Shown here one piece after another: positions 7,865 to 63,900 of a DNA stretch of 64,000 nucleotides. The DNA comes from Closterium sp. NIES-65. Lineage: Eukaryota; Streptophyta; Zygnematophyceae; Desmidiales; Closteriaceae. The stretch is taken from assembly GCA_948144175.1 (NCBI GenBank), contig CANXME010000305.1, positions 49,053 through 113,052 on the forward strand, in the 5' to 3' direction. The translations under genes and the position numbers were made by a program. The notes under the pieces were generated by a model. That model was not told the DNA's origin. It did no database searches and saw only the letters and a list, made by a program, of their open reading frames with translations. Positions within the stretch are counted from its first letter, which is position 1. The number at the start of each line of letters is the position of its first letter.

Positions 7865-10800
7865 TTAGAACCTCTCGCCGAACCGGACAAACCATGAGCC
7901 AGTGCCCATGTTGCAATCCCGAGCGTACTCCGCACGCACGGTGCCGAGCCTGACACCAGCACCCACCGAGGCTCCGAAGCCGGCTCGGCGGAAGAACTCA
8001 GTAGGGTTACCAGAAACCATACCGGAGCTGCCAAGGTCAGAGGCCATCTCAGCAAAGGCATAGGCATGGGTGGTCTTGACTGGGACCCTGATCTCACCCG
8101 CAAGCTGAGAGGGATAATGGGGGCAAGTAAATAGAGAAGGCAGGGATAAGGGAAACGTTAATGAGGAGTTGAGAGAGGACGATGGAAGGAAGGCCAAGCA
8201 GGACGAGCTGGGAGAAAGATGAGAGTGGGTGGCCTCCTCCCAGATCCCAACTTTCACACACAACACATACGCACACAAGCAGGCACCCCCAAGTACCCCA
8301 AGCACCTCGAACTCCCAGGCAGCCCAGGGAGTTTTTGAGAATTCTCACCAACTCCCAGCAACGTCAAGAATTCTCAAAAATTCCCAGCAACGTCAAGAAT
8401 TCTAAAAAATTCCCAGCAACGTCAAGAATTCTCAAAAACTCCCAGCAACGTCAAGAATTCTCAAAAAATTCCCAGCAGACACCCCAAAGTACCCCAAGCA
8501 CCTCGAGCACCCAGACAGCCCCTGAGGCACATCAACACCACCATAGGCCAACCCAGCCACGCACCTCAAGGAAGCGCCTGGCGGCTCCAATCTCGCCCAT
8601 GTTGTACCCGCGGACCGAATACGGCCCGCCCAGTGCATACGCCTCGTACGACGGCAGGTCGCCCAGGCACCCCAAGGCGCACACACTTTCTCCACCCATC
8701 CCTCTCTCCCCACCCAATACACTTACCTCAAGGAAGCGCCTGGCGGCGCCAATCTCGCCCATGTTGTACCCGCGGACCGAATACGGCCCGCCCAGCGCAT
8801 ACCGCCTCGTAGGATGGGAGGTCGCCCAGGCACCCCCCGTAGCGCGCGTGCAGCACCCCCACCATGGGCGGGCGGTCAACACTCCCAGACACACAACCAC
8901 ACACACACACTAGCTCCATCCTTCCCCCCTGACCCCCTCTCCCCCCTCAAAGCACTCACCTCAAGGAAGCGCCTGGCAGCTCCAATCTCGCCCATGTTGT
9001 ACCCGCGGACGGAATAAGGCCCGCCCAGCGCATACGCTTCATACGACGGCAGGTCGCCCATGCACCCCCCGTAGCGCGCGTGCAGCACCCCCACCATGGG
9101 CGGGCGGTCCGCATGGTCCACGTCCTCCTCACTCAGCTGCATGAAGCGCGTGTGCGTCAGCTGATGCCGGTTGAAAAAGGGGAAGGCCGAACCGATGCCC
9201 AGACCCTGGTCCACCTGTGGGGCGAGGGGGAGCCGGAATGAAGAGAGAGGGGTAAGGAAATGGGAGTTGAAGCACATCGAACTGACACCGGCAGCGGCAG
9301 TTAGGGTGGGGTCAAGGCAGTGAAGCCGGTGAAGAGCGGTCCGCATGGTCCACGTCCTCCTCGCTGAGCTGCATGAACCACGTGTGCGTGAGCTGATGTC
9401 GGTTGAAGAATGGGAAGGCTGACCCGATGCCCAGACCCTGGTCCACCTGTGGCGCCAACAGGAGCCGGAAAGGGGAGAGGGGGGTTGGGAAACGGGAGTT
9501 GAAACACATCGAACGGGCACCAGCAGCTGCAGATAAGGAGGGGTCAAGGAAGTCAAGGCGGTCAAGGGGCTCCACTCGGTCCACGTCCTCCTCGCTGAGC
9601 TGCATGAAGCGCGTGTGCGTCAGCTGATGGCGGTTGAAGAATGGGAAGGCTGACCCGATGCCCAGACATTGACATTGACAACAACAGGCGTGCCATTGAC
9701 GACAAACGTGGTGTTGTTGCACTTGACACCGGCCTGCAGGAACGCCACGCGATCCACACCAGCGTCGCTGAGCGTGGTGGGCGGGCCATCGGGGGCAGCA
9801 CCTCATGACCTGTGCCTGTTTCCTGGCCTTCTCACCTGGAAAATGGTACGGTCGCCAACAGGCGTGCCGTTGACAAAGTTGGTGTTATCACGCGTCACGT
9901 TTGCCTGAAGGAATGCCACGCGGTCAACACCGGTGCCACTGAGCGTGGTGGGCGGGCCGTCGGGCGTGGGCAGGCCGGAGGGCAGCATCTTGAAGCCGTG
10001 TGTGCAGATGCTCGTGTTCTCATCGCGCGTTGTCACCTCCTCTATCACTGCGCCATAGGTGATGCGGCTCTGACGGGTGAAGTTCTGTGAGTGGACGGGG
10101 ATGGGAGCGAGGGAAAGGGACAGAGAGAGAGAGGGGGGGAGGAACGATGGGGATGGCGGGAAGTTGAGAGGCAGAGGGGTCGGCGATGCTCAAGGATAAG
10201 CAGAGTTGCTACCCATCCCTACCCTACCCCCCCCCAGCATCTCACCTCACTGACAGTGGCCTTGATGATGCCGGCACGGTCCACCCAGATGGCCAGCACC
10301 TCATCCAGCGACGGCCCGCCCGTGAACACAGCTGACACCTTGCGGTGGTTGAAGCACGTCACTCCTGCATCCCCACCTCAACTTCACCTCTGTGCACCGG
10401 TTTTTATTATTCTTAGCCCCTGTTTTCACAGCTTCTAGTCCAGTCTCACATCGCCCCTGCTCCCCCTCGACCGCACCTCACTGACAGTGGCCTTCATGCC
10501 GGCACGGTCCACCCAGATGGCCAGCACCTCGTCCAGCAACGGCCCGCCCGTGAACACAGCTGACACCTTGCGGTGGTTGAAGCACGTCACCCTTCCCAGC
10601 CTCGTTGTCACCCCTTCGCACCGGTTTTCACCATTCTTAAACCATTTTCTCACTGCTTTCCATCCTGTCCCCCACGTTTTCCTACCCATCCCTCCTCCCC
10701 CAGCATCTCACCTCACTAACAGTGGCCTTGATGCCGGCACGGTCCACCCAAATGGCCGGCACCTCGTCAAGAGACGGCCCACCCGTGAAGACGGCCGACA

Positions 10801-13204
10801 CCTTGCGGTGGTTGAAACACGTCACTCGCCCCACTCTGTTGCGGCTCGTGTCGTCCACCCCGTCGATGTACGGATGCACGTACTCCAGCTTGAACACCAG
10901 ATCGTCCTGTGGCGAGGGGGTTAAACGGGGTAGTGGGGATTGGGTGGGAGAGGGGTTATGGTTGTCCTCACTAAGGGCTCGTGTCATCCACACCGTCGAT
11001 GTAGGGATGCACATACTCCAGCTTGAACACCAGATCGTCCTGTGGCGAGGAGGTTGGGGGGGATAAAGGAGGCGGGAGTTAGGTCGGGTGAGAGAGGGAA
11101 TTATGGTCGTCCTTTCTACTATAACACGAGGCGCCTCAAAATAGACCATGAAGCTACAGCAATAACGCTCTCAGAATGGAGAGGCAGTTTGGCCAGAGGA
11201 GTGCCTGCCTCGCCACTACCACAACCATGATTCTACATGCATATGCAGATGTACATCTCACATTACATGTATACGAAATATATTTTGAACGCAAATAACT
11301 AGTAAATCATCTGCTGTGACCCCTCGCACATAACAAATGCAGTACCTGCGGCGAGAGCAGGTTGCCGGCGCTGACAGAGCCGGTGACGGAGCGATTGAGG
11401 CCGTTGATGTTGCGATGCTCGAATGACACGCTGCCCCCTGGCAGGATGGACACCTGGCATTGGGACCGGGGGAGCGGGTGGGTGGAGATGGGAGTGACAG
11501 CGGTGCATGTGAGAGGATTGCCATGAGGAGCACGGGAAGGGAGACAAGTGACAATGCCTTCAGGCGTTGCAAGGCTGAACGCTCACTCCATCTGCCCCCC
11601 ACCTTCGCCTCCATCACAATTCCACCCTCCAGCTGGTCCTCGGGGCGTCGGTTGACCTCCCGTCCCGACAACTACCCCGCACTGCAAACTCCACACACTA
11701 CCCCACACCCTACTCAACACCGTACGGTCCGTACCCCTCATCCTGCCAGCTTACCGTGGGCTTGCCAGTGTCCCCAGACTGAATGCTTCACTTGGTCTGC
11801 ACTTCCGCAGAAGTGGGCTCCTGCTCGCGGACCTTCACCTCCATCACGATGCCGCCCTCCAGCTGGTCGTCGGGGCGCGGGTTGACCTCCCAACAACTAC
11901 ACCGCACTGCACACCCCAAACTTCACCATGCACCCTACCCAACACCCTGCCAGCTTACCGTGGGTTTGCCGGTATCCCCAGGCTGGATGCTCCACTCCGT
12001 CTGCACCTCAGCGGACGTGGGCTCCTGCTCGCGGACCTTCACCTCCATCACGATGCCGCCCTCCAGCTGGTCATCGGGGCGCGGGTTGACCTCCATGTTG
12101 GCGAACAGCTGCAGCGACGAGATGCTCTGCAGCGCCTTGCGCCCCGCCTCGATGTTGAACACGTTGCCCGGCTTGATCTGCGCGGGCAGGGGGGAAGGGG
12201 GAAGAGTGGTTGGTGAATATGATTACGTTGCTTGGCTGAATCTTTGTGAGACGAAAAGCGGGGAAGGGGGGAGTGCGGAAGGTGGGTTCAACGTTGATGT
12301 TGAAACCTCCCCCCCTCACTCTTCCTCCCCGCTCTCTTCCTTCACCCTTCAATCTCCTCCTCGAACCTTCTTCCCCCACCTTCCCCATTCTCCCCACCCA
12401 CTCCTCCCTCTCTTCCCCATCACGGGAAGCTCTCGCATCACAACGCGCTCATCAGTGATGCCTTCGCACGTGCAGCGTTGTCCAGGAAACACAAACAAGC
12501 ACTTCCCTCTATCCCCACCCCACTTGTCGTCTCCCCCCCCTCTCCCCTCTCTCCCTCTCTCCTCTCTCCCCCCTCACCTCAATGGGCAGTTCTCGCATCA
12601 CAACGCGCTCGTCAGTGATGCCTTCGCAGCGCTGCCCCATCTTGTCGAGAAACTGCACCTCCACGCCCGTCACATCGCCCTCCACCACCTCGCACACGAT
12701 GTCAGGCGTGTTCAGATTGCCGAAGTTGATCACCTGTAAGCATGCGTGTGTAAGGGGAGAGGGTATTACTTGAGAATGCAATCTCTGATTTTCTGCAGCA
12801 GGCTGCAATGTCACTCACCCACATACTGACCATCCACCAACCCACCCACCCACCTATCACGCACATTCCCACACACAAGCCGCACTCACATTGGCACAGG
12901 CGTAGCCCTTGTCGTGGTACCACTTGAGGATACGATCCCGGATCTTCTGCAGCATGCGGGCAGTGAGGCGGCCCTCGCGCTGCACCATGGCGCTCAGCTC
13001 GTTCTCCACCTTGCGCGGCAGCAGGCACTGCCGCGCCTGCCTCAGCCGCTCCGCGTACGCAGCCTCCTGCTTCGCCGCGTCCTCCGACGCCTCCTGCCCT
13101 GAGGCGTCCGGCTGCACGAGCCCCATGTTCACACACCGCACCGTCTTCGCCGCCTGCCACTGCGCTTCAAGAACCTTCACCTCCAGCTGCGGAGTGCAGA
13201 AGAG

Positions 13205-13246
<42 letters not shown>

Positions 13247-17765: not shown

Positions 17766-20700
17766 CATGCTGCTGGTGGGGGAAGGGGTTGCTGGGAGGA
17801 GTGGGGACACATGCTGCTTCGAGAGTTGCTGCTTGCTGTGAAGATGCACGCAGCCACTCATACATCGCCACCTGGCGCACCACCTCGTAGTCCGACTCCT
17901 CATCCTCGCTATTGAGCTCCCCGGTTTCACTACTGTAGTCCGTCCCACCCAGCAGTGGGCGCCGGTGAATGTCATCATAACGAGTCTGCCCCCCAGTACT
18001 CCACCTCCTCCTGCCACGCTCTGCACGCTCTGCCCGTTCTGCCCACTCTGTACGCTCTGCATGCTCTGCACGCTCTGCAGTCAAATGCGTGGGAAGCAGG
18101 TGGTTTGCGCCGCACCTCTCGCCCCCCGCCCATTCCTGCGTCTGTCGTCCGCCTCTCGCGTGTTCCTGCATGCAGGTGTGAATATGAGCCCACATCACGC
18201 CCTCCTCCTCCTTACAAGTCGACTCAAAAGCGCCCTCCTCCTCCTCCTTACAAGTCGACTCAAAAGCGCCCTCCTCCTCCTCCTTTTGAGTCGACTCAAA
18301 AGCGCCCTCCTCCTCCTCCTTACAGTGCACCAGGGACAGATGACTCCTTTCCTGCTCCTGCTGCTGCCCCCACCGCTGCTGCTTCTCTCGTTGCTGGCCC
18401 CACTGCTGCTGATGCTGCTGTTTCTGCTCCTGTCTCTGCCCCCACTGCGGCTCGTGCTGCCCCCACTGTTGCTGCTGCTCCCGCCGCCGTTCCCACTGCC
18501 GCCGCTGTCGCTGCTGCTCCTGCTGAAGCTGCTGCTGCCATGCCACCTCCCCACCAGCAGAGCCAGAAGCATCAGAGGGAAGCCGCCACGGGCTGGCCCG
18601 TGAATGCCTGTCGCCGTCCTCAGTGCCAGCAGAACCACACGTGTTATCAGCACAGGATGCAGAGTGCTTTTGAGTTGACTCAAAAGCCACCTCCCCACCA
18701 GAAGAGCCAAAAGCATCAGAGGGAAGCCGCCACGGGCTGGCCCGTGAATGCCGGTGGCCCTTGTCAGAGCCACCAGACCCACAGGTGCTATCAGCACAGG
18801 ATGCAGAGTGACAGCCACGCCCGCGCACACAGTGATGGATGGTTTCACAGTGGTGGTGTGACCTGCAACAGCCACTCTCGTACGCGTTTTTGTCACATCT
18901 GTAGCATTCATTACAGTCACAGTTGAGGAGATGGTAGCTGCCACCACAGCTGCTGCCCCCTACACAGTCACACGAGCTGTTACAGTCAAGGTCAAAGTGA
19001 CGAGTTGGCCTACCACCGTCCACCCCATTTGCTTGAAACAGGCATCTGCTGCTGACGTTGCAGCCGTTGCTGACATGGCATCCGCTCCTGACATAGCATC
19101 TGCTGGTGATGCATCCGTTTTTGTGGGCATGACTAGTCCTGCTCCCATAGCAGCTGCATTGCCAGCTGTCCCTTCTCCAAGAGGCCAGGGAACATGCCAC
19201 GTGTCCATATGGACTGACAGCTGCCACGCCACGTGAACAGGCCACGTCAGCGGCCCTGCAGCTTCTCCTGTGGAGCAAACAGTCTCGAGGAAGAGTGATG
19301 CGGTGAACTGAAGAGTTTGCTGGAAGGCCTGTCTTGATGCACGTTGCTCCTGCCGCCCCTGCCACCCCTGCCACCCCTGCCACCCCTGCCCCCCCTGCCG
19401 CCCCTGCCACCCCTGCTGCCCCTGCCACCCCTGCCGCCCCTGCCACCCCTGCCCCCCCTGCCACACCTGCCCCCCCTGCCGCCCCTGCTGCCCCTGCCAC
19501 CCCTGCCGCCCCTGCTGCTCCTACCGCTTTGGCTGCTTCAGGTGCAGGGCGGCAGGGGTGTGAGTGGCGCATGGCGTGAGTCTGCGTGCCCACCACGCAG
19601 TGACCCTGCTCACATGCAGCACGGTACTTGTGAGAATCTTTAAAGCCACCCTGGGAGAGCACGCAATGGCTCGGCCCACAGGCACCCCCACAGGCACCCC
19701 CACAGGCACCCCCACAGGCACCCCCACAGGCACCCCCACAGGCACCCCCACAGGCACCCCCACAGGCACCCCCACAGGCACCCCCACAGGCACCCCCACA
19801 GGCACCCCCACAGGCACCCTCACAGGCACCCCCACAGGCACCCCCACAGGCACCCCCACAGGCACCCCCACAGGCACCCCCACAGGCACCCCCACAGGCA
19901 CCCCCACAGGCACCCCCACAGGCACCCCCACAGGCACCCCCACAGGCACCCCCACAGGCACCCCCACAGGCACCCCCACAGGCACCCCACAGGCACCCCC
20001 ACAGGCACCCCCACAGGCACCCTCACAGGCACCCCCACAGGCTCTCCTGAGGAGCGCGCCCACCCGCTCCAGCATGCCTCCCAACGCCGCTCCTCTTGCC
20101 TCATGCGCCCCGCTTCCCACCTCGCCCCGTCCGCACAATGCACCGCCATGAATGAACCGCTCTGCTTCTGCACCCGCCTCCGATTCCTCACACTTGTCAT
20201 CAGCATTTCCCTCTCCTTTTTCTTTCTCAAAACTATCTCCATCACTAAACCCCTCGTCGTCTTTATACTCCTCTTCCTCTGACGACATGTTTCGAGGTGG
20301 CTTTTGAGTCGACTGAGAAGTCACCTCGTCGTCTGTATACTCCTCTTCCTCTGACAACATTTTTCTTTCGATCCAGCCTCTATCGGTCCTGAGCCAAACT
20401 CCCACCCACTTCGTCTCCCCGTCTGAACACCCCTTGACCTCCATGCATCCCTCTCCTTCTGAAATCTCCTCATCATTTTCTTCTGCATACCCGTGTCCTT
20501 CACCATACCCCTCTCCTTCACCATACCCCTGTCCTTCACCATACCCCTGTCCTTCACCATACCCCTCTCCTTCACCATACCCCTCTCCTTCACCATACCC
20601 CTCTCCTTCACCATACCCCTCTCCTTCACCATACCCCTCTCCTTCACCATACCCCTCTCCTTCACCATACCCCTGTCCTTCACCATACCCCTCTCCTTCA

Positions 20701-22756
20701 CCATACACCTCTCCTTCACCATACACCTCTCCTTCACCATACCCCTCTCCTTCACCATACCCCTCTCCTTCTACATACCACTCCCCTTCCAAACACTCCT
20801 CCCCTTCAGTCAGACCCACGTCTTCCCCCACCCCTCCGTGCCAACTCCCCATGCCATCCAAGCCATCACTCCAACCGCACGTCTGGCCCAAACCATCACC
20901 TCCACACCCCACTCCGCAGCCATCACTCCAGCCCGCCCCAGGCGCATCTCCATAGGAATGTTCGGCCCCCACTGCGCAGTCATCTCCATACCCCACTCCA
21001 CAGTCCTCCCCACAGTCCTCCCCATGCCTGTCCTGCGCCTGCCCGGGCTCCTTGGCCAGTGAACAAGCAGCGCAGCAGCCAGCAGCCTCTTGTGAGGGGG
21101 AGCTCCTACCAGCCTTCCTGCACTCCGCTGCTCCCTCCTTCAGCTTGTGCAGCCGGAGCAGGGCCTGCAGTGCCTCCGGTGTCCTCACTGCCCCCCGCAC
21201 TTTCTGCAACTCCTGTGACTCCTGCGCCTGGAAACTTCCGTCCGGCTTTCCACCTTGCTTCGCTCCCTCCTTCAGCTTACGCAGCCGGAGCAGGGCCCGC
21301 AGTGCCTCCGGTGTCCCCACTGCCCGCAGCTTCTGCACCTTTGGTGTCACTTCCGTTGACTGGGTTGACTGTGTTGTCTGCGTTGACTGCATTGACATCC
21401 TTGACTGCATTGACTGCGTGGACTGCGTTGACATCATTGACTGCATTGACTGCGTTGACTGCGTTGACTGCATTGACTGCATTGACTGCACTGATTGCAT
21501 CGTGTGTGCCACCTGCTTCCTTGGCACGCCAGCCATCTCCTTCAGTTCCCGCAGCTTCTGCAGAAGCTTCCGAACCCTCTCAGACATGACGTCACCTGCT
21601 GCCACCTCACCAGCTGCAGCATAACCCGGCACAGCCTTATCAGGTGTGGTATGACCTGTCTCGGAGTGCATATCCCACATCTCGCCCTCCTTCCCCACCT
21701 CCTGCCTCGTCGCCATTTTTGACGGCTCTTTTCCCCCTTGCACCTGCACCACCTCCGGCCTCTTCCCCTCCTTCGGCCCCCCCACCTGCAGCAGCTCCTG
21801 AATCCTCGCCAGGTTCGCCTGCATGCAAGCAGCAGCTGGCACAGGCTGGTCGCTGAGAGGAACGTCACACCATTCCAGCATTCGTGACTTTTGAGTCGAC
21901 TCAGATGTCAGCCGCGGCACCTCCTTCACTCCCGGCACGTGCAGCAGCAGCTCCTGCCTCTTTGCGACCTGCGGCACCTCCTTCACTCCCGGCACGTGCA
22001 GCAGCAGCTCCTGCCTCTTTGCGACCTGCGGCACCTCCTTCACTCCCGGCACGTGCAGCAGCAGCTCCTGCCTCTTTGCGACCTGCAGCACCTCCTTCAC
22101 TCCCGGCACGTGCAGCAGCAGCTCCTGAATCCTCTCCAGGTTCTCCTTCATGCAAGCAGCAGCTCCCACAGGCTTGTCTCTGAGAGGCACGCCAAACCGT
22201 TCCAGCCGTGCCTTAACCTTGTGCAGGTGGCCCTCAATAAATGCAGGGTCCAGCGGACAAGGGATGGGAGGCAACACATTTAGTGACGATGATGGTGATG
22301 ACGTGTCACTGCCATGCTCTGACGTGTCACAGCAGCTGCTGCCTAGACTGTATCGTAACCTGCTGCTGCCGCTGCTACAGCCGGTAGAGTGCTTGCTGCG
22401 GTAGCCAAGGCAGCTACGGCTACGGCTGCTACAGCTGCTACAGCTACTCACAGTGTTGCATCGTAGCGTGTCAGTGCTACAGCTGCTACAGGTACTGGTG
22501 CAACTGCTGCCAGTGCTGCACCGTGTTGCTTTGTGCCCACTCAGATGACCATGCACGTACCCTCCCACCCTGCTGCTGCTGCTGCTGCTGCTGCTTCTAC
22601 GATTGCTACAGCTTAACATATCACTGCCGTGACCATGCTGCGCCCACCGATGCCGCACCACCTCCTCATTATAGTTGCTCCTGCCCCTGCTGCGCCCCCC
22701 TGTGCTGGGGACATCCGTGCCACGGTTCCCGAACCGCTTCCGCCATTCTGAATCAC

Positions 22757-22817: not shown

Positions 22818-25800
22818 CTGCTGCTCCTTCTGCTGCCTCTTTGTCAGCAGCTCTCTCATTGCTTCGTGCTGTTCCTTCTGCTCTCTCTCTCCCCACCGCT
22901 GCTGCTGCTGCAGCCAAAGCTGCTTTTGCTGCGGCTGCTCCTTTGGCTCATATCCCTCCTCTTCCCACCCAGTCCTTCCGTCCTCCCATCCATCACCTCT
23001 ATCGCACTCCTCCCGCTCTCCTCCACCTTCCCGCCCATCCTCTCCATCTCTCAACCTAATCTCTCCTTCCTCCCATTCATCATCTCGTTCCATCCTCTCG
23101 TTAACTCCTCTCCACCCATCCTCTCCCTGCTCCCAACCATCTGTCCCATGCTCTTCCCGCTCTTCTTCCCCTTCCCACCCATCCTCTCCCTCTCCCCACC
23201 TAACCTCTCCTTCCTCCCATCCATCATCTCGTTCCGCCTCCTCCTCCTCTCCTTCTTCCCACCCATTCTCCTCCCATCCACCACCTGTCTTGTGCTCTTC
23301 TCGCCTCTCTTCCCCTTCCCGCCCATCCTCTCCCTCTCCCCACCTAATCTCTCCCTCCTCCCACTTATTATCTCGTTCCACCTCCTCATTCTCTCCTTCT
23401 CTCCACCCAACCTCTCCCTTCTCCCAACCACCACCTGTCCCATGCTCTTCTCGCATACGTATAAAGTTTCGACCTGGATCCAACAGGTGACTCGTCATAC
23501 TCCAACAGGTAACTTGTCCTGTCCCATGCCCTTCTCGCTCTTCTTCCCCTCCCCATTTATCCTCCCTCTCATCCCACCCATTCTCTCTCTCCTCCCACCC
23601 ACCATCTTTTACATGCTCCTCATTCCGTCTCTCCTCCCCCCATTCATTCTCTTCCTCCTCCTTCTCTCGCACAAACTCCTCTCTCAACTCCTGCTCTCGC
23701 TCCCACTCCCGCCGACCCTCATCCTCCTCCTCCATTCGCCTCCACTCCGCCTCATCCGTCTCCTCTCCCTCTTGCTCGTCCTCTTTTCCCAACCCCCACC
23801 ACCCCCACTCGTCCTCATCCTCCCACTCGCGTTGTTCCTCCTCCTCCTCCTCCTCCTCCTCCTCCTCCTCCTCCTCCTCCTCCTCCTCCTCCTCCTCCTC
23901 CTCCTCCTCCTCCTCCTCCTCCTCCCCTTCCACATGGTCTATCCCTTGAGCCTCCTGTATTACCTCCTCTTCTTCCTCCGCTCTCCCTGCCCCTTCCTCC
24001 TCAACCATCACACACTCCTCCCCACCCCCTTCTTCCTCCTCCACCCCTTCCTCTTCCTCTTCCTCTTCCTCCTCCCCACCAGCCATACCCAACGATGGCA
24101 TGTCACATGCCTTACATGCTCGTGTGGCAGATAGCCCTGACCCAGGTATACCTGCACAGGATGTGCCTCCCTCAGAACCAGCATCTTGCACAGCAGCCAG
24201 TCCCCCTGTCCGCTCACCAGCTTGCAAATCATCGTCAGCAGCAGCAGGATCACTGCCGCCACTGCTGCTGCTGCTGCTGCTGCCACTGCAAGCCATACGC
24301 GAGTTGATGCTAGCACATGGGGCTGTCACAATCCCCAGTCGCCCCATCTGCTCTCTTACTGCCCGCTGCATCGCCACTGCCCTTGCCACAGCAGCAGCAC
24401 CACCAACAGTGGCGGCATTCCCTAAGTCGTTCAGAGGGGCACTCTCAAGGGCATGTTCACTGGCGTGCAGGCAGGCGTGCAGGAAGGCAGAGGCGCGTTG
24501 GTGGAGGAGAGGCGAGGCGAGGACGTCTGCTGCTGTGGGTCGGTGAGAAGGGGCCTGCATGGGAGAACGGGGGATACGCGTTGAGGGACAGAGGCAGAGG
24601 GAGAAGAATGGGAAACGAACACGGCAGAGAGGAGGCATTATGATGAAATCACTTTTGAGAATTCTCAAAAACGAACACGGCAAGGAGGAGGCATCATGAT
24701 GAAGGAGAGGGGAGAAGGGGATGTGTGGGGCGGCCAGAGGGGGGTGCTGTTATTAGTAAACAGGTGGGCTGCGAAGGTCTGATGTCCATCAACTTGAATG
24801 TTATTAAGACGGCAAGGAGGAGGCATCATGATGAAGGAGAGGGGAGAAGGGGATGTGTGGGGCGGCCAGAGGGGGACTTGAGAGTGTGTGAGAGGAAAAG
24901 GACGGGACTGGAAGAAACGAGGGTATGGTGAGAGAATGATGTATGGGGAAGTAGATATTGGCAGATAAGGTAGATGCATCGGAAGGGGTTCCTTATAGGA
25001 TACGACGGGTTTTATCCGAGTCACTACGTTGTGCTTCCGTCAACCATGTGGGACCAACCATGGGCGGTTTAGGCATGCAGATATGCACCTGAACCGTGCG
25101 CATGCACCCACACATGCACACGCACGCATATGTGCACATGCTCATGCAGACGCATGTACGCATTCATATATGAACACTCGAACGCACATGCTAATATTAC
25201 ACATGCGCCTGAACCCGCACATTCACATGCACATACACATGCACATGCACATGCACATGCACATGCACATTCACATGCACATGCACATGCACATTCACAT
25301 GCACATGCACATTCACATGCATATGCATATGCAAGCACACGTATGCAAGCGAACCTGCACCCAGGAATCCACACAAGACAACACACACGTTGACAAGGGG
25401 TCATTAGTGGGCACTTCCGACAGAATTGACCTCACCTGAGAGGTTTACATTCACCTGGGCTTGTTGAATTCACCTGGGATTGTTGAGTTCACCTGAGAAA
25501 GCATGCGTCTGACAAGTGCACGGAGTTCAAGAGAGTAACTGCCAGCGGGTAGAGGACAAAAGAGACAAGGGCAGGGCGAGAAGGGAAGAGTGGGTGGGAG
25601 CGTGGGACAGAAGGAGTGGGAGATAGTGGATAGGTGGGAGAGAGTGGGGAAGTGGGTGTGGGATAGGCAAGTGATGGGTGGAAGAGCAGGCTGACGAAGT
25701 TGGGGGGGGGAAGAGAAGGAGTGTGGAAGAAGAGAGGGTGAGGTTGGACACGGGAGGGTGAGGTTGGACACGGGAGGGTGAGGTTGGACACGGGAGGGTG

Positions 25801-34874: not shown

Positions 34875-35962
34875 CTAGATGGTTTGGGCGAGCTGGCACT
34901 CGGTGGTGTTGGTCATGGAGTAGCTGTTGCCGTTGCCGAAGCGCAGCTCCTGCACGCAGGGCCGGAAGTCCCACAAGTACGCATACACAATGTTGACCGT
35001 CTCCCCAGGGAGCATCTGCAGAGTGCCGCTCGCACCACGGTTCATGCGCATCTCACAGTACCCCGGCGTCGTCTGCACAAAGATTTCGCCTTGCTGGTAC
35101 TGCGAGGGGTTGGGATCGGGGTTGTCGAGGATGCCCTCCCACGCGTTGCCGAAGTTGAAGCACTGCCACACGCGCAGCGGGCTGGTGACGTTGTAGGCGC
35201 AGCCGTTGTAGAAGGTCATGTTGTAGATGTCGTTGTGCAGGTCGTACGGCCCCAGGTACTGCGAGCGGATCGTCACCGTCGTGCGCCCACACGCTGTGAG
35301 GAGGACAGGGGAAGGAGGGGAGGGAGAAAAGGGGAGAGAGGGGGCAGGAGTGAGGTTGCGTTGTGCAGGTCGTACGGCCGCAGGTACTGCGAGCGGATCG
35401 TCACTGTTGTGCGCCCACATGCTGGGAGGAGGGAGGAGATGTGGAAGGGTGGAAAGAGGAAGGTAAGCATGTAATCAGAATTCAGATTGTCACCACCATG
35501 CACCGTACACTAAGCACATAACAGAGGAGGAGGCAACGGGAGCAGAGGAATGAGAGGCAAGGGGAGCAGGGGAATGAGAGGCAAAGGGAGCAGAGAAATG
35601 AGAGACAAGGAGAGCAGAGACAGGTTGTGAGAAGAAGAAACAGCAGAGCGAAGGAACCAAGGAAGGTAAGAGAGGGAGAGTGGGGAGCAGCGTTGCGTAC
35701 AGGTGGCGAGGGCCTGGCGGCGGGGGATGTGGTCGAGGTAGCCGGGCAGAGGCTCATGGTGAGCGAAGGTCTCAGCCGCCAGAATGCGCGCGCCCTTCCT
35801 CTGCTGCCCCGCAGCGCCAGCCACTCCGCCAGGCGCGGCGCCATCCGATGGGACGAGGACCCTGGCGACCTTCATGGCGTCCCGCGCTCCACTCACCGCC
35901 GCCGCCAGCAGCCCCACCGCCAGCGCCGCCAGAACCAGCACGCGCATCCCAGCCGTCGCCAT
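34875..35962 (-). CDS. Secreted six-cysteine protein of unknown family, copy A
   Basis: Exons 35962-35701 and 35293-34875 join in phase 1 (Ser codon) to give 226 residues. Residues 1-26 are a clear signal peptide (MATAGMRVLVLAALAVGLLA, cut near SGA). A basic, Ala-rich segment with QQRKGARI could be a propeptide. The second exon encodes a compact domain with six cysteines (SCGR, GCAY, QCFN, YCEM, PCVQ, ECQL) and three N-glycosylation sequons (NMT, NVT, NTT), so three disulfides and secretion are likely. I do not recognise the family and assign no function. A TATAAAA box (coding strand) lies about 130 bp upstream. The protein differs from copy B by only about ten residues, several at the very C-terminus. 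Confidence 0.85.
35358..35420 (-). pseudogene. Relic copy of the start of exon 2, copy A intron
   Basis: An acceptor plus the first ~60 bp of exon 2 (CGRTTVTIRSQYL, PYDLHN) is repeated in the intron, with no following donor. Use of this acceptor would give a different C-terminus. Copy B of the gene lacks the repeat. Confidence 0.8.
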
Positions 35963-46225: not shown

Positions 46226-46231
46226 GCCACT

Positions 46232-46515: not shown

Positions 46516-46868
46516 TGGGGAGGGGAGTGGAGATAATTCTCCTGGCAACGGTGGCAATGGTTAGCTGCTGTCACCTCCCTCAGCTGCAGCAAGTTGTCTG
46601 CAGAGGGGAAGGGGGAGCGTTAGAAGTGAGGGGGAAGTATGGGAGAAGGGTGGGGGAAGATGGCGTTGGGGGTTGAGTGGAGAGCCCCAAGGGGAGAGGC
46701 GGCGGGAGAGGAGAGGCTCGAGTGGTCGTGCCTCAAGTCGTCTGCAGGGAGCAGGGGTGGGTGTCGGAAAGCGAGGGGGAAGAGAGGGTGTTGGGTGTTG
46801 AGTGGAGAACACGCAAGGGAGAGGCGGTGGGAGGGGTACAAGCGGTGCGTCTAGTCATATCGTGTCAC

Positions 46869-52952: not shown

Positions 52953-52967
52953 GCTAGCTCGGCTCGG

Positions 52968-53125
52968 CCCACTACCGCCGTTCAAGAAGCCCCAGCCCGA
53001 GTGCAAGGCGGTCGCAGAAAAAACCAGCCCGACTAGTTCGGCCCACGCCTTGCTGCTCACGCCTTCCTGCCCACTACCGCTGTTCAAGAAGCCTCAGGCT
53101 GAGCACAAGGCGGTCGCAGAGAGAA
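52968..53125. repeat. Tandem duplication upstream of the bicupin gene
   Basis: Two ~75-bp copies sharing CCACTACCGC.GTTCAAGAAG and AAGGCGGTCGCAGA. It lies just before the start codon, in the promoter or 5' UTR. Confidence 0.75.
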
Positions 53126-53129
53126 CAGC

Positions 53130-54209: not shown

Positions 54210-56338
54210 CATCCCAGCTGTTGTCTTGTCTTGATAACGCTCTTGAGCGCCGTGAGCCACACGCCACACTCCTCCCAGTCCTTGGTCGTCAGATCCACCT
54301 GTCGTTGAGTGAGCAAGTGAAGAGGAGGGAGGTGTGAGAGGGGGGAGGGGGAGCGGTAAGGGAGGGGAGCGCATGTGTGTGTTTTTTCATGCTGGAAGGA
54401 GGGGATATGTGTCTGTGCGTGTGTATACGCTGGGGGAGAAAAATGTGAGTGGTCTTGTCAAAGTGCAACACCTCACATATATCCATCCACCTCTTACCAC
54501 CGCTCTCCACCCACCTGGATGTGCAGAGCAGTGGCATAGTCCCCGGCATCCAGAGCAGCACAGAGTGGCCCCAGCTTGCCAGCTACGGAGGGCGACACAT
54601 CGCGCTGGTTGAGGCGCTGCAGCAGCAGCCCGAGCTTCTTGCTGTTGGCGTCCATCTCCCTCTTCTTCCCCGCATTGCCCTGCGCCGCCACCGCCGCTGC
54701 CACCTCCTTGTACACCCTCCCCAGCGTGCCTGCCACTGGGCGCAGCTCAGCTGGGGCGAGAGGGAGAGAGGGGGAGAGAGGGAGAGAGGGGGAGAGGGGA
54801 GGGAGAGCAGCACACACCCGGTTCAAGAGCTATCAATAGCCAGCTTGTCTCAAAGAAGCACACTCACGGGCCACGCCGTGGAGGGGGTGGGGGGGGAGAA
54901 GGAGAGACGAGAGAGGGCCGGCAAAGCAGCACATTCACAGGGCACGTTGTGGGAGGGAGGGTGGGGAGGGGGATGAAAGACGAGAGAGGGCATGCAAAGC
55001 AGCACATCCGGTTTTTTTCGAAACCCAGCTTGTCTCAAAGCAGGGAGATCTGAGAAAGCAGGCAGGGAGGCACACTCTTGGGCCAAATCGTGTGGGGGAG
55101 GAGGGGAAGACGAGAGGCGAGAGACGAGAGAGGCGGGCTGGCAATAAAAAAAGAAAACTCACGGGCCACGTTGGAGGTGTCGGCTGTTTGCACCGTGGGC
55201 GGCGGGGCGGGCGGCGCAGCCTCGGGAGCAGCGGGGGCGGGTGCAGCCGCAGCAGGAGCAGCAGCAGCAGCCCCAGGCGGACCCACAGCAGCAACACCAG
55301 GGGGGCGCACGCCAGGAGGGGGACCAGTGGGGCGCATCATGGGGGCAGCGCCAGGGGGGGGAACCCCGGGGGGAAGCACCCCAGGGGGGGGTGCGCCAGG
55401 GGGGAAGACTCCAGGGGGAGGGGCGGTGGGGGCCATGCCGGGAGGGGGGCCGGTGGGCATGCGGTGGGCAGGAGGGGGAGCTACTGGGGTGAAGGCCACT
55501 GGGCGGGGTCCCTGTGCTGCCCGTGCTGCTGGTGGCGGCTGCGTGGGCATCATCATTCCCGGCTGATGGGGGGAGGTGGGGTGGTGGTTGGGAGGGGAGG
55601 GGAGGGGAGGGGAGGGGTGGGGGGGGGAGAAGTGTTGGTTGGAAAGGTTGGGTTGAAGGCTATGGGGCGGGGTCCCTGTGCTGCCCGTGCTACTGGTGGC
55701 GGCTGCGAGGACATCATCGTTCCCGGCTGATGGGGGGAGGTGGAGGTTGGAAGGGATTAGGAGGAGTGTGGGTTGGTTGGGAAGGAGGACGTGAAGGACG
55801 AGAGAAAATACAAGCAATTGGTTAAGAGCGGTGAGAATGGGGGAAGATGGAGTGGGACGGAAAGACTTACTGGAGGGCCGGAGGGCATGTGATGTGTGGA
55901 TGGAGGCGGGGCGGCCACAGGCGGGGGAGCAACAGGCATGAAGGACGGCTGGGGAGGGGTGGTAAGGATAAGAACAGAAGCAAGCACAGCAACAGGGGTT
56001 TAGGGCAAGAGAGAGATAAGCAGAGGAAACGAAGTGCATGAGAAGAATCGAGCCCCAAACCCCTGAGCTGGTAAGGAGTACCGACACTCAGTCCAGAAAA
56101 TCACCTGCAGCTGTGACTTTCGCACGCTCCCTCCCTGCGCTACTACCCCAGCAGCAGGTGAGCAGAGGGCAGAAGCACAGCAAACCACATAGATGTATTG
56201 TCATGGCAGGAGCTCACCTGTGCGCCTGGTGCTGCCTGCCCTGCTGCCATGGGCTGCATGGGCTGCATGGGTGGGGGGTGCTGCGGCATGGCCACACCCG
56301 GGGGCGGTGCAGTGGGCATGAACATGTGTGGCCTTGCT

Positions 56339-56488: not shown

Positions 56489-56917
56489 AGTTGCTGCTGC
56501 TGTGCATAGGACTGAGCAGGAGGAGCAACGGGCTGAGGCTGATATGTGGATGCATAGGAGGTTTGCGGATGCCGTTGCTGGGGCTGATGCTGCTGCGGCG
56601 GCTGCTGCGGGCGAGGTGGGGTGTGTGTGATCGGCTGCTGTGGCTGCTGCGGGGCCGCCTGGGCAGGTGCTGGTGACTGAAGATGGAAAACGGAGAGGTG
56701 CGAATCGTGATCAGGACATGGAAATGGGAGACAGCGGAAGGAAGAGAGGAGAGCGGAGCACGGGAAGGGGAGAACGGGGAAGGGTGAGGGGAGAACGGAA
56801 ATCGGAAAAGGGAGGAAGGAAAAGGGACACCAGACAAAAAAGGCTAACAGCTTACTAGGGGTGTAGAGCTGGTACTAAGAAGAGTGAGCATAAGCAGCAG
56901 TATCTGCTGACTAACAG

Positions 56918-56956
<39 letters not shown>

Positions 56957-57636
56957 GCAGCAGCATTGTGGCCAGTTTTTGAGTCGACTAAAAAATAAGC
57001 AGCAGCATCTGCTGCCTAACAGACAGCAGCAGCAGCATTGTGGGCAACAACAAATGCCGGGCAGGAGATGAGGCAGGTACATGCCTGATAGTACGAAGGC
57101 TGAGCAGGCGCAACAGCAAATGCTGATTGCTGTGTGGCATACGGCTTGGCAGCAGCAGCAGCAGCAGTGGTGGTGGTGGTGGAGCCAACAGGCACATCGA
57201 CAGACGTGAAGGGGAAGGGCGGGGCCGGCTGTGAGGGGTCCACGACAACTGCGGTGAGTGGCATGGCATGGACGAGGCAAGGAGTTTGGTGAGTGAACTG
57301 AATGCACAAGAGGATGCAATGCAAATGTGGCGCTCTGGTTCTGATCTCCCACCAATGAGGTGGTTTTTGAGGCGCCGCCTCAAAAACCACCTCCAAGACA
57401 GGGTTCTGATCTCCCACCAATCTGCAGCGATTGGACCTCCCCATCCCCCTCGTAAGGCACACACACAGATGAACACTGTCCTAAGGCCACACACACACAC
57501 ACGCACCCAACCACCCACCCACCACACACAGGGGCACCCACCCACCCAAACACACACACACACACACCCACACACATGCACCCACCCACCCAAACACACA
57601 CACACATACACACACACACACATGCACCCACCCACC

Positions 57637-57860: not shown

Positions 57861-57939
<79 letters not shown>

Positions 57940-60900
57940 GCAGCAACCCACCGAGTCCGCTGCGGTAGATGCGCTCCTTCAAGGCAGCAGCAGCCGTGGC
58001 AGCCTCGGCCACACTCGGGTCATTCACACTCTCCTCCCACGGAGGCAGAAGAGACAACAGATGCTGTGCCGCCGCCGCCCGGCCCTGGGCCGCCAGTACC
58101 GTTGCGTACTCTGAGACGAGCGACGCCGCCCACCTGCCGCCGACCCTGCTTTGTCCTGTAGCCAAGCCCAGCACCACTGCCTTCTCAATAAGATCCTGGA
58201 TTTGATCGAGGAAATAAAAAGGGAGAAAGGGGGGAAAAGGGGGAGGGGGGGGGGGGAATGGAGGCAGCAAAAGTAGTTACGATCTACACCTTGTACTTAC
58301 AATGACCCTTCTTCCCATTCCAATCCGCTGCTTCTAGCACCACTTCAGCTTAAAACTCATCTGAAGGTGCGGCAGAGCTGGAATAATTGTTCTGGCAACC
58401 GGGGTGGGGCCAAAACGTTGACCTTGACTGCCACGGATGACAGAACACCCACACAAGGACACTAGACTCTAGACTTTGCAGGTGCAGCAAGGGTGGGGAG
58501 GCCTGGGAAGGCTGTTCGTGCAGCAGGGTGGAGGCCCAGTTGTCCACCACTCGGTCAATGGATCCCGCACACATGAAGCACAGCGTAGCCCTGGCGCCTC
58601 AAAAGCCATCCATGCATAGTAGTCCCTAGAGCGAACTCACTTGCAGGTGCGGCAGGGGCGGGGACCCCTGTGAGGGCTGCAGGCGGGAGGCCCAGATGTC
58701 GACGACTCGGTCAATGGAGCCCGCACACATGAAGCACAGCGTTGCCGCCTGCCACTGCCCCGCCGCTTCGAGCCGTGCTGCCAGCTCGTCACACAACACG
58801 GACCACTCGTGGCTTGGCGCATACTGTGAGAAGGGAAGGGGGTGGTGACACGAATGGTGAAAAGGGAAAAGAGTGGGGCGAATGGAAAGGGGTGCTTCCA
58901 ACCGCGCTGCCAGCTCGTCACACAACACCGACCACTTGTGGCTCGGTGCGTACTGTGGGCGCAGGGGAGGAGTGGGGGGGGGGGGGGGGGAAGTTGAGAC
59001 GTCCTAGAAGAAAAGAAAACAGCGTTGCCGCCTGCCACTGCCCCGGTTGCCTCCAGCCGTGCTGCCAGCTCATCACACAACACTGACCACTCATGGCTTG
59101 GCGCGTACTGTGAGGGCAGGGGCGGGAGGAAGAGTGGAGAGGAGAAGGGAGGTGGAGTGGAAACGGATGGAGAAGAGGCGAGGAGAGTGGGAGAATGGGA
59201 AGGGGGGGGCACGGAGCAGTCATGTATTCTGTGCAACAGTGCGAGGAGAGAAGCAGCTACCAGAGAGAAAAGAGAGTGTGCAATGAAGGTCAGAATTTAA
59301 TCAGCAAGAGGAGAATGAGGGGCTGACAGTGCAGCGCATGGCTTACAGTGCAGCGCATGGCTGACAGTGCAGCGCATGGCTTACAGTGCAGCGCATGGCT
59401 GACAGTGCAGCGCATGTCTTACAGTGCAGCGCATGCTTACAGTGCAGCGCATGGCTTACAGTGCAGCGCATGGCTTACAGTGCAGCGCATGGCTTACAGT
59501 GCAGCGCATGGCTTACAGTGCAGCGCATGGCTTACAGTGCAGCGCATGGCTTACAGTGCAGCGCATGGCTTACAGTGCAGCGCATGGCTTACAGTGCAGC
59601 GCATGGCTTACAGTGCAGCGCATGGCTGACAGTGCAGCGCATGGCTTACAGTGCAGCGCATGGCTTACAGTGCAGCGCATGGCTTACAGTGCAGCGCATG
59701 GCTTACAGTGCAGCGCATGGCTTACAGTGCAGCGCATGGCTTACAGTGCAGCGCATGGCTTACAGTGCAGCGCATGGCTTACAGTGCAGCGCATGGCTTT
59801 ACAGTGCAGCGCATGGCTTACAGTGCAGCGCATGGCTTACAGTGCAGCGCATGGCTTACAGTGCAGCGCATGGCTTACAGTGCAGCGCATGGCTTACAGT
59901 GCAGCGCATGGCTTACAGTGCAGCGCATGCTTACAGTGCAGCGCATGGCTTACAGGCAGCGCATGGCTTACAGTGCAGCGCATGGCTTACAGTGCAGCGC
60001 ATGGCTTACAGTGCAGGCGCATGGCTTACAGTGCAGCGCATGGCTTACAGTGCAGCGCATGGGCTTACAGTGCAGCGCATGGCTTACAGTGCAGCGCATG
60101 GCTTACAGTGCAGCGCATGGCTTACAGGGCAGCGCATGGCTTACAGTGCAGCGCATGGCTTACAGTGCAGCGCATGGCTTACAGTGCAGCGCATGGCTTA
60201 CAGTGCAGCGCATGGCTTACAGTGCAGCGCAATGGCTTACAGTGCAGCGCATGGCTTACAGGGCAAGCGCATGGGCTTACAGTGCAGCGCATGGCTTACA
60301 GTGCAGCGCATGGCTTACAGTGCAGAGCATGGCTTACAGTGCAGCGGCATGGCTTACAGTGCAGCGCATGGCTTACAGTGCAGCGCATGGCTTACAGTGC
60401 AGCGCATGGCTTACAGTGCAGCGCATGGCTTACAGTGCAGCGCATGGCTTACAGTGCAGAGCATGGCTTACAGTGCAGCGCATGGCTTACAGTGCAGGAG
60501 CATGCGAGTGTTTCCCGCCAGTCAGAGAGCGGCTGTGACGCCACGAGCCCTCTGATGTCACTCGCCACCACCGCTCCCAGGCAGCTGTGGACCAAGATAG
60601 GGTGGAAGGGGGTGGAGGGGAGGAGAGGGGACGAGGGTTAAAGCATGGGAAAGAGGGTTGAAGGAGGCTGTGACGCCACGAGCCCTCTGATTGCCGCTCG
60701 CCACCACCGCTCCCAGTAGCTGCATCTCCACCACATGGGGGGAGGGAGGGGGAGCGGAGAGGGGGGGTGGGAAGTGGAAACGAACGAGGGTTAAGAATGG
60801 GAAAGGAGGGAAAAGGGCTGCGATGCCACGAGCCCTCTAATGTCACTCGAGCACACGAGCCTCAGCACACTAGCGGCATTAGAGGGCTCGTGGCGTCGCA

Positions 60901-63900
60901 GGCCCAGCAGCTGTGATTGCTGCCAGGGATGGGCGTGTGCAGGCACAACGGTGTGGAGATGGGGAGAGGAGAAGAGCTGGTGGCAAACGGGAGAACGGGA
61001 TGAGGGGATTTGATGTGCCTGGGTGCAAGGGAGGAAGAAAGAAGAGGCACACACAGAGCAGCCCTCGCTGCGTCTAGCAGAACAGAAACCACAAGGGAGG
61101 CTAGAGCTGCGTGAAATTGGGCTGGGGTGACAGGACGAGGGGGGGGGCCTTGTGCAGGCCTGGGACCGAGTCAAAGTTGGAAGCATTGTGATAGCTTGGG
61201 GCTGTCACAGTATCATAGCCACTACTCAGAGCACATGGCAACCTCTCAAAAGCCACAAGGCGCCCACGACAGCCAGCCCACGCACCTTGAGAAAAGAGCG
61301 GCGGCGGTTGCGGCGGAAGGTACCAGCGCTGGGTGCGTGCCCAGAGGTCCGAGTTGAACCCCGCCACTGCTGCCTAGCACGAGCGCATCCGCCACCCTGC
61401 CCGCCGCCAGACACCTCTCCACTGCCGCCTCATAGTTCCCCACCACCAGCGCCCTCTGCACCTCGCCCTCCACTCCCCGCCTCCCTCCTCCCCCTCTTCC
61501 TCGTCATCTTCCTCCTCCTCCTCCGCCTCCCCCTCCCATGCTGCTTCCCTGGTGATCTCGCCGTTCTCTCCCGGAGCTTCCCCTGCTGTGGCTGCAGCAG
61601 CAGCAGCAGCAGCAGCAGCGTTGGGAGTGGTTGCTGCCAGCGAGATCGTCAAAGAAGTCAACGTCGCCCGTGGCGGACGGAATTCCCATCCAGCCCTGTT
61701 CCCGTCCCCGCCACAACCCCCCCTCCTTCCCCACCAGCACCGTCAAGAGACAGAACTCCCACTCCTGCTGCCGCCGCCTCTGCTCCCGCCTCTCCCGCCG
61801 CGGCCTCTGCTGCTGCTGCTTCGGCTTCAGCAGCAGCGGCGGCAGCGGCAGCAGGGTCTTCGGCGGGGGGCAGGGTGGGGTTGGGATGTGGATGGGCGGG
61901 AAGTCGAGATGTGCCAGCAGCTTGCGCAGGGCACGTCTTCAAAGAGCACTGTGAGGAAGTCCCACGTCTCCCTGTCCTCTGGGGCACTGGGGAGGGCGAG
62001 AAAGAGTGGTGGGAAAGAGAGTGGTGGGAGAGAGGAGTAGGAGAAGAGTGTCACCACACGGACCCAAAATCGGTTAACTCACAAACAAACGCGCTCCGCC
62101 ATGCAAGAGAGTATAGTGTCCATTCCGCCCCTCCCACCCCCTTCCCCCCTTGCCACCACCATCACCATCATAATGAACCCATCACCATCACCACCCCCAG
62201 CGCACGCCAGCGCCACTCACGTGGCGAGCTTGCGCCTTGTGTTGGCAGAAGGCTTTGAGATTCTCCTGTCGCCGCCCGCCACGGCAGCCTCAAACTCGTC
62301 AGCGCGGGCCACCACGCCCTCCTCCGTCACCACACTGTGCACCGCCACCTGCGCCCCATGCCCTGCTTGCCCCACCTTGCTTCCAAAGCACAGCAGCCGC
62401 CCGCCAAAGCCAAAGGTTGCTCCGCACGGCCGCTTCAACCACTTGGGCGCGCGGGATGTTGCTGGAGGGGAGGGGGGGGGGGGGAGGAAGGAGGGGAGGG
62501 CGGGAAGAGCAGGAAGTGATAGAGGGGTTTCCTCAGCAGTAAAAGAGGGCAGACAGTGGCTGCATGGCACGGCACATCACAATCATCGCAGGTAGAGATT
62601 TGTCAATGTGGCACATGACAGCGGCATGGATGACGTGGCATGGCATGGCACAGTCAGAACGAGGTACGTACCCATGGGCGTTCTGTTGGCGAGCGACGCG
62701 CCAAAGTCTGACTCCTTGCTGCTAGCCGACTGCTTGGGAAAGGCGGGAGCAGAACGCAAAGGAGGGAGCAAGGAAAAAAAAAAAAAAGGGAGATGTGGGT
62801 GGGGCATGGGGGGAATAGGGAAAGGGAGGGGGAAGGGCGGACACAAGAACATCTGGTATAGTCTATAGACGAAGGGCAACATCTGGTATAGTCTATAGAA
62901 GAAGGGCAAAATCTGGTATAGTCTACAGAAGAAGGGCAACATCTGGTATAGTCTATAGAAGAAGGGCAATATCTGGTATAGTCTATAGAAGAAGGGCAAC
63001 ATCTGGCGGACAAGAAGGTTGCCAGTGGCGTATGGGCAGGGAAGGGCGATTGGGAGAACGATTGAGACACCGTCACAAAAAGGGTAGAGAAACGCGGAAG
63101 AAGCATGACACACCTCGATGTTGTACAGGGAGACGTGGGCGTCGAAGCAGGATGCGGAGAGCAGGCCTGGCACCCGTGGCGACCAAATAAGCTCACGCAT
63201 GAATGCTGCGAAGCAACTTACCTTGATGTTGTAGAGCGAGAGACGCACCTCGATGTTGTAGAGCGAGACGTGGCCGTCGAAGCAGGAGGCGGAGAGCAGC
63301 CCTGGCACCCGTGGCGACCACTGCAGGTCGAAGTTCCAGTTGGTGCCCGCCGGTAGCTCGCACAACACCTGAAGGGGTGGGGGTGGGTGGGGAGGAGAAA
63401 GGGGGTTTGAGTCAACTCAAACACATTCTGGGTTGACCCAAAGCACCCGTGGCGACCACTGCAGGTCGAAGTTCCAGTTGGTGCCCGCCGGTAGCTCGCA
63501 AACACCTGGTGGAGAGGGGGGAGGTAAGGGAGGGTGGAAGGGGGTAGAGGGAGGGGGGGTGGGGGAAAGGGAGAAGAAGGAACACTGCAGGTCGATGTTC
63601 CAGGTAGTGCCCACCGGTAGCTCGCACAGCGACTGGAAGTGGGGGGACGAGAGGAGGGGAGTGGAGTTAGGCAAGAGATGTGGAGGAAACAAGGAGAAGA
63701 GGAGGAAAGGATTCGGAACTTTGAAAAGAGAGTATGGCCGTCATTGGCGCATGGAAGCAGCAAAGCAGAGTCGACACATAGTCGATCTACATGCCATCAT
63801 TGAGGTGTGTTTTGAGGCGCCTCAAAACACATCTCAATGCACGCGGAGTCGCTACATAGTCGGTTACATGCCATCTTCAAGCACATTAGACAGCATGCCA

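Follow-up and report, generated by a model that had tools for sequence, protein, structure and literature searches.

Short palindromes flanked by direct copies of their targets form a large repeat family in Closterium sp. NIES-65

The stretch of DNA analysed here, hereafter the window, comprises 64,000 bases of contig C305 (bases 49053-113052) in the 874-Mb genome of the zygnematophyte alga Closterium sp. NIES-65, and is taken to be nuclear DNA. It contains split genes, numerous minisatellites and a retrotransposon relic (a weak RVT_2 match), and stretches resembling this relic are present in other loci that we fetched from the genome. An exon of an LCIB-type carbonic anhydrase lies in a stop-free frame near 1567-2370, and such genes appear to form a tandem pair (1567-2958 and 5026-6417, the last exon of the second copy being recognised by eye). 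Scattered along the window are short palindromes sharing the 18-base core TTTTGAGNNNNCTCAAAA. The present study concerns this family and the direct copies of neighbouring sequence that flank most of its members.

Palindromes and direct copies in the window

A sequence-only reading of the window had placed such palindromes at the junctions of local tandem duplications, and the association is real. Allowing up to two mismatches, the core has 12 matches in the window against 0.08 expected (maximum 1 in 100 shuffles), and seven of the 13 window palindromes scoring at least 9 belong to the family. The 13 sites first listed hold to about 12 bases; with the addition of 26036, 14 were aligned by their flanks. 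Direct copies flank 11 of the 14; none lies more than 44 bp from its palindrome, and most touch it on one side or both. An abutment test, in which ungapped copies were sought on both sides, at most 20 bp from the palindrome and with a score of at least 24, was passed by 10 of the 14 sites. Of 1077 random positions placed outside tandem arrays, 25 passed; with arrays kept, 258 of 1500 did.

At two sites the copies adjoin the palindrome on both sides without a gap. The palindrome at 18666-18687 (site 18668), whose TTGA centre is one transition from TCGA, separates 122-bp copies (18544-18665 and 18688-18809, 110/122 identical), and a 36-bp palindrome with the full arms CGAGGTGGC at 20293-20328 (site 20302) separates 36-bp copies (20257-20292 and 20329-20364, 33/36 identical). 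A perfect 18-bp palindrome with an AATT centre (24653-24670) lies between 24615-24647 and 24671-24703 (30/33), a TCGA-centred one (31874-31895, site 31876) between 31823-31872 and 31897-31946 (43/50), and a 42-bp one with a GCGC centre (63798-63839) between 63765-63797 and 63843-63874 (28/32). The 37-bp palindrome GAGGTGGTTTTTGAGGCGCCGCCTCAAAAACCACCTC (57357-57393) has 20-bp copies that are still identical (57337-57356 and 57402-57421, 20/20). Around the TCAA-centred palindrome at 63403-63424 (site 63405), the 91-bp copies (63305-63395 and 63443-63533, 83/90 identical) contain, by eye, an exon start.

Elsewhere tandem arrays have become part of the picture. The AATT-centred palindrome at 8327-8356 (site 8333) forms the left end of a 29-bp array, which lies between it and the right-hand of two 48-bp copies (8278-8325 and 8474-8521). 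At the TCGA-centred palindrome 21885-21910 (site 21885/21889), the right-hand of two copies of 113-116 bp (21767-21879 and 22091-22206) is found beyond a 57-bp array, while at 56976-56995 (site 56977, TCGA centre; copies 56891-56931 and 56996-57036, 35/41 identical) an expanded CGG/CAG run separates the left copy from the palindrome. The palindrome CTTTTGAGTCGACTCAAAAG at 18283-18302 (site 18284), with 22-bp copies, is itself within a 36-bp array (18201-18324), two other units of which retain just its centre and right half. Four more sites are weak or partial: a match with two core mismatches at 26034-26055 (site 26036), of uncertain membership, between 32-bp copies (25986-26017 and 26062-26093); a decayed palindrome at 32490-32513 (site 32493) with a mere 9-bp exact repeat (32481-32489 and 32529-32537); the half element GGCGCCTCAAAAGCCATC at 58590-58610 (site 58593), whose copies of 105-114 bp lie across a longer gap (58476-58589 and 58641-58745, 91/105 identical); and, on the minus strand, a solitary half arm TGTGGCTTTTGAG at 61245-61257, by eye without a partner arm alongside.

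Other repeats share the window with the family. Exon pieces between 58476 and 63640, presumably of a SEC31-type gene by their look, for which name the searches returned no match, are duplicated locally two to three times, and one of these duplications holds the palindrome at 63405. Other local duplications, of 55-95 bp and with spacers of 44-69 bp that are not palindromic, were seen at 10843-11055, 21130-21340, 24674-24875, 31064-31229, 35231-35432, 46646-46836, 52967-53126, 55485-55743 and 63107-63320. These may stem from the same repair process with other fillers, in which case the palindrome family would be one template among several. A 40-bp minisatellite of about 104 copies (98% matches) occupies 26775-30917. 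At 667-739 there is an unrelated 73-bp hairpin containing CCCTAAA/TTTAGGG, which we take to be the plant-type telomere unit; no flanking copies were found near it or near the palindromes at 26468 and 45555, which also fall outside the family.

Abundance, flanking copies and empty sites in the genome

Across the genome the exact core occurs at 30,327 sites and its reversed-pattern control at four, so that the repeated, sequence-specific process surmised from the window is borne out at large scale. A full-arm variant of 34 bases is found at 706 places with up to three mismatches, and the tail-bearing arm GTAACGAGGTGACTTTTGAGNNGAC of the commonest subfamily at 628 (358 + 270) with up to one mismatch; both controls gave 0. 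The centres were tallied in the first 50 genome matches in contig order, some of which belong to arrays: 22 are TCGA, 12 ACGT, 10 GCGC and two AATT, the remaining four being one transition away from one of these. As 46 of these 50 listed centres are self-complementary and only 16 of the 256 possible four-base sequences are, the centre is constrained to self-complementarity. The copies are unevenly spread: 200 kb of large contigs, sampled as twenty 10-kb stretches at set coordinates (L085-L104), hold 1 exact core, fewer than the genome-wide average of one in 29 kb would give. At least 30 exact cores, among the matches listed, fall within about 98 kb of contig C6. Cores are strongly clustered, perhaps with genes.

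Flanking duplications were assessed at 57 cores. Thirteen of these were window sites (nine of them inexact; the half element at 58593 was excluded), and the other 44 were exact, isolated cores taken from 51 loci fetched from the genome. Loci L109, L110, L114, L127, L128, L129, L135, L146 and L150 had been dropped beforehand as duplicates, paralogs or arrays, as had 48 cores less than 120 bp from another core and three near a locus end. The fetched loci were found by the family's own patterns, so that they do not sample insertions at random. Of the 57 cores, 50 are flanked by direct copies, which are 17-125 bp long (median 46.5); L112, 8333 and 21889 have copies that lie beyond the criteria, and 32493 has 9 bp. 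Among random positions, 164 of 600 from the window, 61 of 600 from the 10-kb stretches and 111 of 400 from locus flanks (10-28%) lie between copies, this control using a laxer score limit than the cores (24 rather than 28); under the same laxer limit, 21 of 23 core groups lie between copies. Identity between the two copies ranges from 75 to 100% (n=50, median 93%, perfect at eight sites), in agreement with the earlier suggestion that the events differ in age. Arrays of 3 to about 10 copy-palindrome repeats with a near-constant period were seen in L081 (1100-2350), L138 and L139, so that the unit itself can expand.

Some insertions bear on coding sequence. Stop-free frames on the minus strand of the window read the palindromes as FESTQK (18284 and 18668), SQSTQK (20302) and SESTQK (21889). 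For the stop-free frame that crosses palindromes in the window, a Pfam match and a homolog were sought and neither was found, and we consider it a putative gene. The palindrome peptides, sought in 60 proteins (58 LCIB proteins and two window frames), are present solely in the two window frames. In L103, an ATG-initiated open frame begins with a 93-bp unit, made up of copy and palindrome together, that is in frame. The length of the copy plus palindrome unit is a multiple of three at 24 of 50 sites, against 16.7 expected (p about 0.02 by our own reckoning), as if frame-keeping insertions survived better in exons.

Whether the palindrome or the duplication came first can be read at L120. Its flanks were joined (the copies are 43/43 identical) and the genome was searched with the result. 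L120 itself and a 98% identical copy on contig C2079 match as two overlapping pieces, as expected of a filled site, whereas four further loci, 75-82% identical to the query, match in a single piece across the junction. Three of these paralogs were aligned; in each of them the 43-bp segment is single and the palindrome is absent. By comparison with them, filled L120 has gained a 44-bp palindromic insert and a second 43-bp copy, with zero loss. The single-copy, palindrome-free sites that the sequence-only reading had looked to relatives for thus exist in paralogs; at L120 the insert and the duplication are both derived and clean and result from one insertion event.

Further empty sites were looked for in other ways. 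An all-against-all comparison of the fetched loci returned mainly repeats and near-identical duplicates, and no further empty site among the matches listed. Protein homologs in other strains were sought for residues 850-1250 of a 1742-residue stop-free frame and for residues 1-112 of the L103 reading, and none were found. By eye, L139 contains repeated related segments (GTGGCACAACCC...), one only with a palindrome-copy array, the locus thereby holding a diverged empty counterpart of its own.

These results bear on two simple explanations. Chance and ordinary repeat biology would have pre-existing palindromes promote slippage or unequal exchange nearby, and the genome is indeed rich in tandem arrays and local duplications, with palindrome-containing arrays among them (L081, L138). 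However, the L120 paralogs that lack both palindrome and second copy contradict this there, and unrelated targets carry one palindrome family, with 30,327 cores against four for the control; we regard it as very improbable. The resemblance of the centres to restriction sites (TCGA, AATT, GCGC, ACGT) could, for its part, evoke an artefact of library linkers or of assembly. Linkers are an unlikely source, since both copies and palindromes show decay and vary from site to site (median copy identity 93%, individual mutations in the palindromes) and since empty sites exist in paralogs. The same insert is also found in near-identical stretches on different contigs (L122 and L135, L107 and L110), and the 24 of 50 units whose length is a multiple of three likewise speak against an artefact. 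We give an artefact next to no credence.

Anatomy of the insert and its junctions

In the commonest subfamily the arm, read from the outside inwards, is a 3' portion of (GATGAAAAAGTGTCGTGTGCCATN)GTAACGAGGTGRCTTTTGAG, a consensus drawn up in this analysis, and two arms join head to head at the four-base, nearly always self-complementary centre. The point at which an arm starts varies from copy to copy, at both ends of the insert, and the arms within one palindrome begin at unequal points of the same sequence (e.g. L106, L120, L121, L126, L147 and L149). Palindromes of the tail-bearing set pair a long arm with one that begins near GAGGTGAC or later. A two-tailed palindrome was read in L161, and the coordinates of a second, on C1316, agree. 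Taking 22 of 50 cores as being of the TCGA type, we estimate that about 2% of arms are tailed, and two two-tailed sites among the 100 tail-bearing places listed are compatible with independent arms.

Since both the ends and the duplication length vary, a DNA transposon, a long or short interspersed nuclear element (LINE/SINE) and a Helitron do not fit. Miniature inverted-repeat transposable elements (MITEs), LINEs/SINEs and Helitrons/Replitrons are dispersed repeats with target duplications or terminal hairpins, but their ends are fixed and their duplications fixed or short. In place of the constant terminal inverted repeats and the fixed short target duplication of a MITE or other cut-and-paste transposon, arm starts vary between copies and duplications span 17-125 bp (median 46.5, n=50). 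A LINE or SINE would have a constant 3' end, which in most cases carries an A-rich or repeat tail, and a variable 5' end; here both ends vary, with 628 tailed arms against 30,327 cores. HUH-type Helitrons and Replitrons combine no or a fixed duplication with conserved termini, whereas 50 of 57 cores have long, variable duplications and the termini vary as well.

The two arms of a palindrome are more alike than arms of different palindromes: at the variable position 2 agreement is 0.97 within and 0.65 between palindromes, and the corresponding values at position 10 are 0.88 and 0.68, a covariation reached by none of 2000 permutations (64 palindromes). Two known variants meet in a few palindromes, GGTGGC with GGTGAC in L107, L119 and L122 and GGTGGT with GGTGGC in L108, as expected if each arm is copied separately. 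L103 has a perfect palindrome of 52 to 58 bp whose outer arms are different, and L122 a perfect 56-bp palindrome within a composite insert, which indicates that further subfamilies exist. Inside some inserts the family sequence is repeated as units of 27 bp (L114, L117, L123) or 47 bp (L162), which are joined at T or A runs. Correction of quasi-palindromes through template switching could explain the perfect arms at 18284 and 8333 but cannot give one core at unrelated sites, and was rejected.

Of 70 junctions analysed, 34 are usable in that the arm reaches the target without unexplained bases. Microhomology at these averages 2.9 bases, against 0.8 when targets are exchanged between sites, a mean equalled by none of 5000 permutations; greedy placement of the junctions inflates the observed value by an estimated 0.3-0.4. 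The target continues the arm by at least three bases at 14 junctions, against 3.0 with exchanged targets.

Two rivals must be weighed against this anatomy. The main and broader one is a minute mobile hairpin of about 34-60 bp that would use its own or a borrowed enzyme (a reverse transcriptase or an HUH-type nickase) to nick the two target strands 17-125 bp apart, its ends often being trimmed. The 30,327 copies with a single conserved core, the subfamilies by centre and arm and the polar, mostly one-sided tail would suit such an element, and perfect target copies at 8 of 50 sites suggest recent activity. However, transposase products and those of target-primed reverse transcription retain at least one fixed end, while here both insert ends vary, the target duplication ranges from 17 to 125 bp and microhomology is found at junctions on both sides; on balance a mobile hairpin seems to us unlikely.

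The nearest rival invokes one-sided copying: one break end would copy a non-palindromic template ending in CTCAAAA, fold back on TTTTGAG and copy its own upstream arm, the resulting hairpin being joined to the other end. This would account for matching arms and for a long tail usually on a single arm, and extension of ends in cis has been reported for polymerase theta (PMC4912351), in a text that uses the term snap-back. Against it, a loop would have no need of the self-complementarity that the four-base centre shows; two-variant arms are found in L107, L108, L119 and L122, and L161 has two tails. The target also continues the short-side arm in L133, L143, L147 and L159, though microhomology joining could do so as well. 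We hold snap-back to be distinctly improbable.

A possible route of insertion and its implications

We read the copy-palindrome-copy units as scars of sequence-specific insertion, in which a shared template would have been copied, primed by microhomology, on both 3' ends of staggered breaks; this account of the route seems to us evenly poised between right and wrong. Its mode of insertion matches no mobile element known to us. A staggered break, that is, two opposed nicks 17-125 bp apart, would leave two single-stranded ends. Each 3' end would anneal by microhomology to the common template and be extended to a self-complementary tip; the two tips would then anneal, and fill-in would double both overhangs to give copy, palindrome and copy. 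Where an insert holds runs of 27- or 47-bp units, the template would have been copied several times over, with slippage at T or A runs. Candidate enzymes are a theta-like polymerase and a reverse transcriptase, and RNA or existing genomic copies candidate templates. Arms would match while being unequal, two variants could meet in one palindrome and junctions would show microhomology because both 3' ends copy one template; the core would be self-complementary and the palindrome would sit exactly between the copies because the new tips anneal; and the target would be duplicated because paired opposed nicks are followed by fill-in.

The sequence-only reading had offered either a tiny element inserting with a long target duplication or a repair route with a hairpin-derived filler. 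A blend of the two looks true, variable ends and microhomology favouring insertion of the repair type. One point needs correcting: instead of a hairpin formed anew at each site, the filler is a single sequence family, which has a longer tail, usually on one side. More tentatively, we speculate that a templated, telomerase-like addition tags nuclear break ends in Closterium with a self-complementary tip, the sticky ends rejoining with duplication of the overhangs, and that the sequence, a dedicated or selfish patch, would spread as an efficient repair filler without a transposase.

Several observations weigh against templated copying on both ends. No enzyme, template gene or RNA was found, no search aimed at such genes having been made, and empty sites are known for a single insertion, in paralogs of 75-82% identity. 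At 36 of the 70 junctions the arm falls short of the target under the simple consensus, leaving from one to some tens of unexplained bases, some of which are tail variants or other subfamilies. Three of the 57 cores (L117, L134:1574 and L144) lack direct copies and 32493 has just 9 bp, while the near-constant-period arrays (L081, L138, L139 and L140) require an extra step, such as unequal exchange. Matching arms would also result from one-sided copying with snap-back, and later mutation could account for the two-variant cases. Finally, general repair leaves unexplained why one sequence has been used tens of thousands of times.

Parts of the proposed route have counterparts in other systems. 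According to parts of PMC8355091, tandem duplications arise in other species where nickases have made staggered breaks, and duplications at opposed-nick breaks are explained there by fill-in of both overhangs by CST/Pol alpha-primase. The Closterium insertions share with break-repair duplications a second target copy arising from a single-copy site (L120, three empty paralogs, one insertion) and junction microhomology (2.9 bases on average at 34 of 70 junctions, as against 0.8 after permutation). Unlike them, as far as those parts of PMC8355091 report no common inserted sequence, Closterium junctions hold one sequence family. For polymerase theta, PMC4912351 and PMC5068794 report that break ends are extended terminally, from templates in cis or in trans. 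One family has been used tens of thousands of times in Closterium, whereas the templates of polymerase theta insertions are, as far as is known, local or varied.

Short palindromes multiplied in genomes are also known, and the sequence-only reading had named two cases. The Rickettsia palindromic elements, which can lie in frame within coding genes, much as some Closterium copies keep an open frame, are bacterial and longer and are not known to have flanking duplications of 17-125 bp. Their identity with the Closterium family was rejected, the latter sitting in a eukaryotic nuclear genome. The organelle palindromes of Volvox carteri, as described in parts of PMC2670323, are hairpin-forming repeats of about 50 nt on average with loops of 3-5 nt of the TTTA type, located in organelle intergenic DNA and introns, with some copies in nuclear DNA judged to be inert transfers. 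On that partial description, the likeness lies in short hairpin-forming repeats multiplied in a green alga; the Closterium family differs in being nuclear, loopless, linked to duplications and on many contigs. A text search of PMC2670323 for the stem 'duplicat' gave zero occurrences.

Phage, viral, plasmid and prokaryote origins were rejected: a 601-base window piece had no match among phages, neither the 18-mer core nor a 20-mer arm had one in IMG/VR, and searches with a 22-base piece (exact) in GTDB contigs and with a 92-base consensus among plasmids also gave none. A 15-mer arm hit 80 loci in IMG/VR, about chance by our own reckoning, and was not used. The window had no Rfam match, and three further loci yielded one sub-threshold mir-204 match (L140). 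In the literature searched, which took in few subscription papers, the papers listed for Closterium palindromes, for palindromic mobile elements with long target duplications and for palindromes with duplications and filler contain no description of such insertions, and the main text of the Closterium genome paper (PMC10407611) has no occurrence of the term 'palindrom'.

About 30,000 scars, some of them young, would directly record how staggered breaks arise and are sealed in an alga closely related to land plants. Because they duplicate stretches of their targets, among which exon edges were seen by eye, and can also add peptides in frame, the insertions are a source of gene change. A defined RNA with TTTTGAGTCGACTCAAAAGTCACCTCGTTACMATGGCACACGACAC at its 5' end, if there is one, would point to a reverse transcriptase, and the template and polymerase, if found, would provide a natural tool that joins DNA ends via a programmed sticky tip. 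The family also raises the question of a sequence that multiplies in a genome purely as a good repair patch. Should the tagging of break ends prove true, end joining would have a new route and genomes a new kind of replicator.

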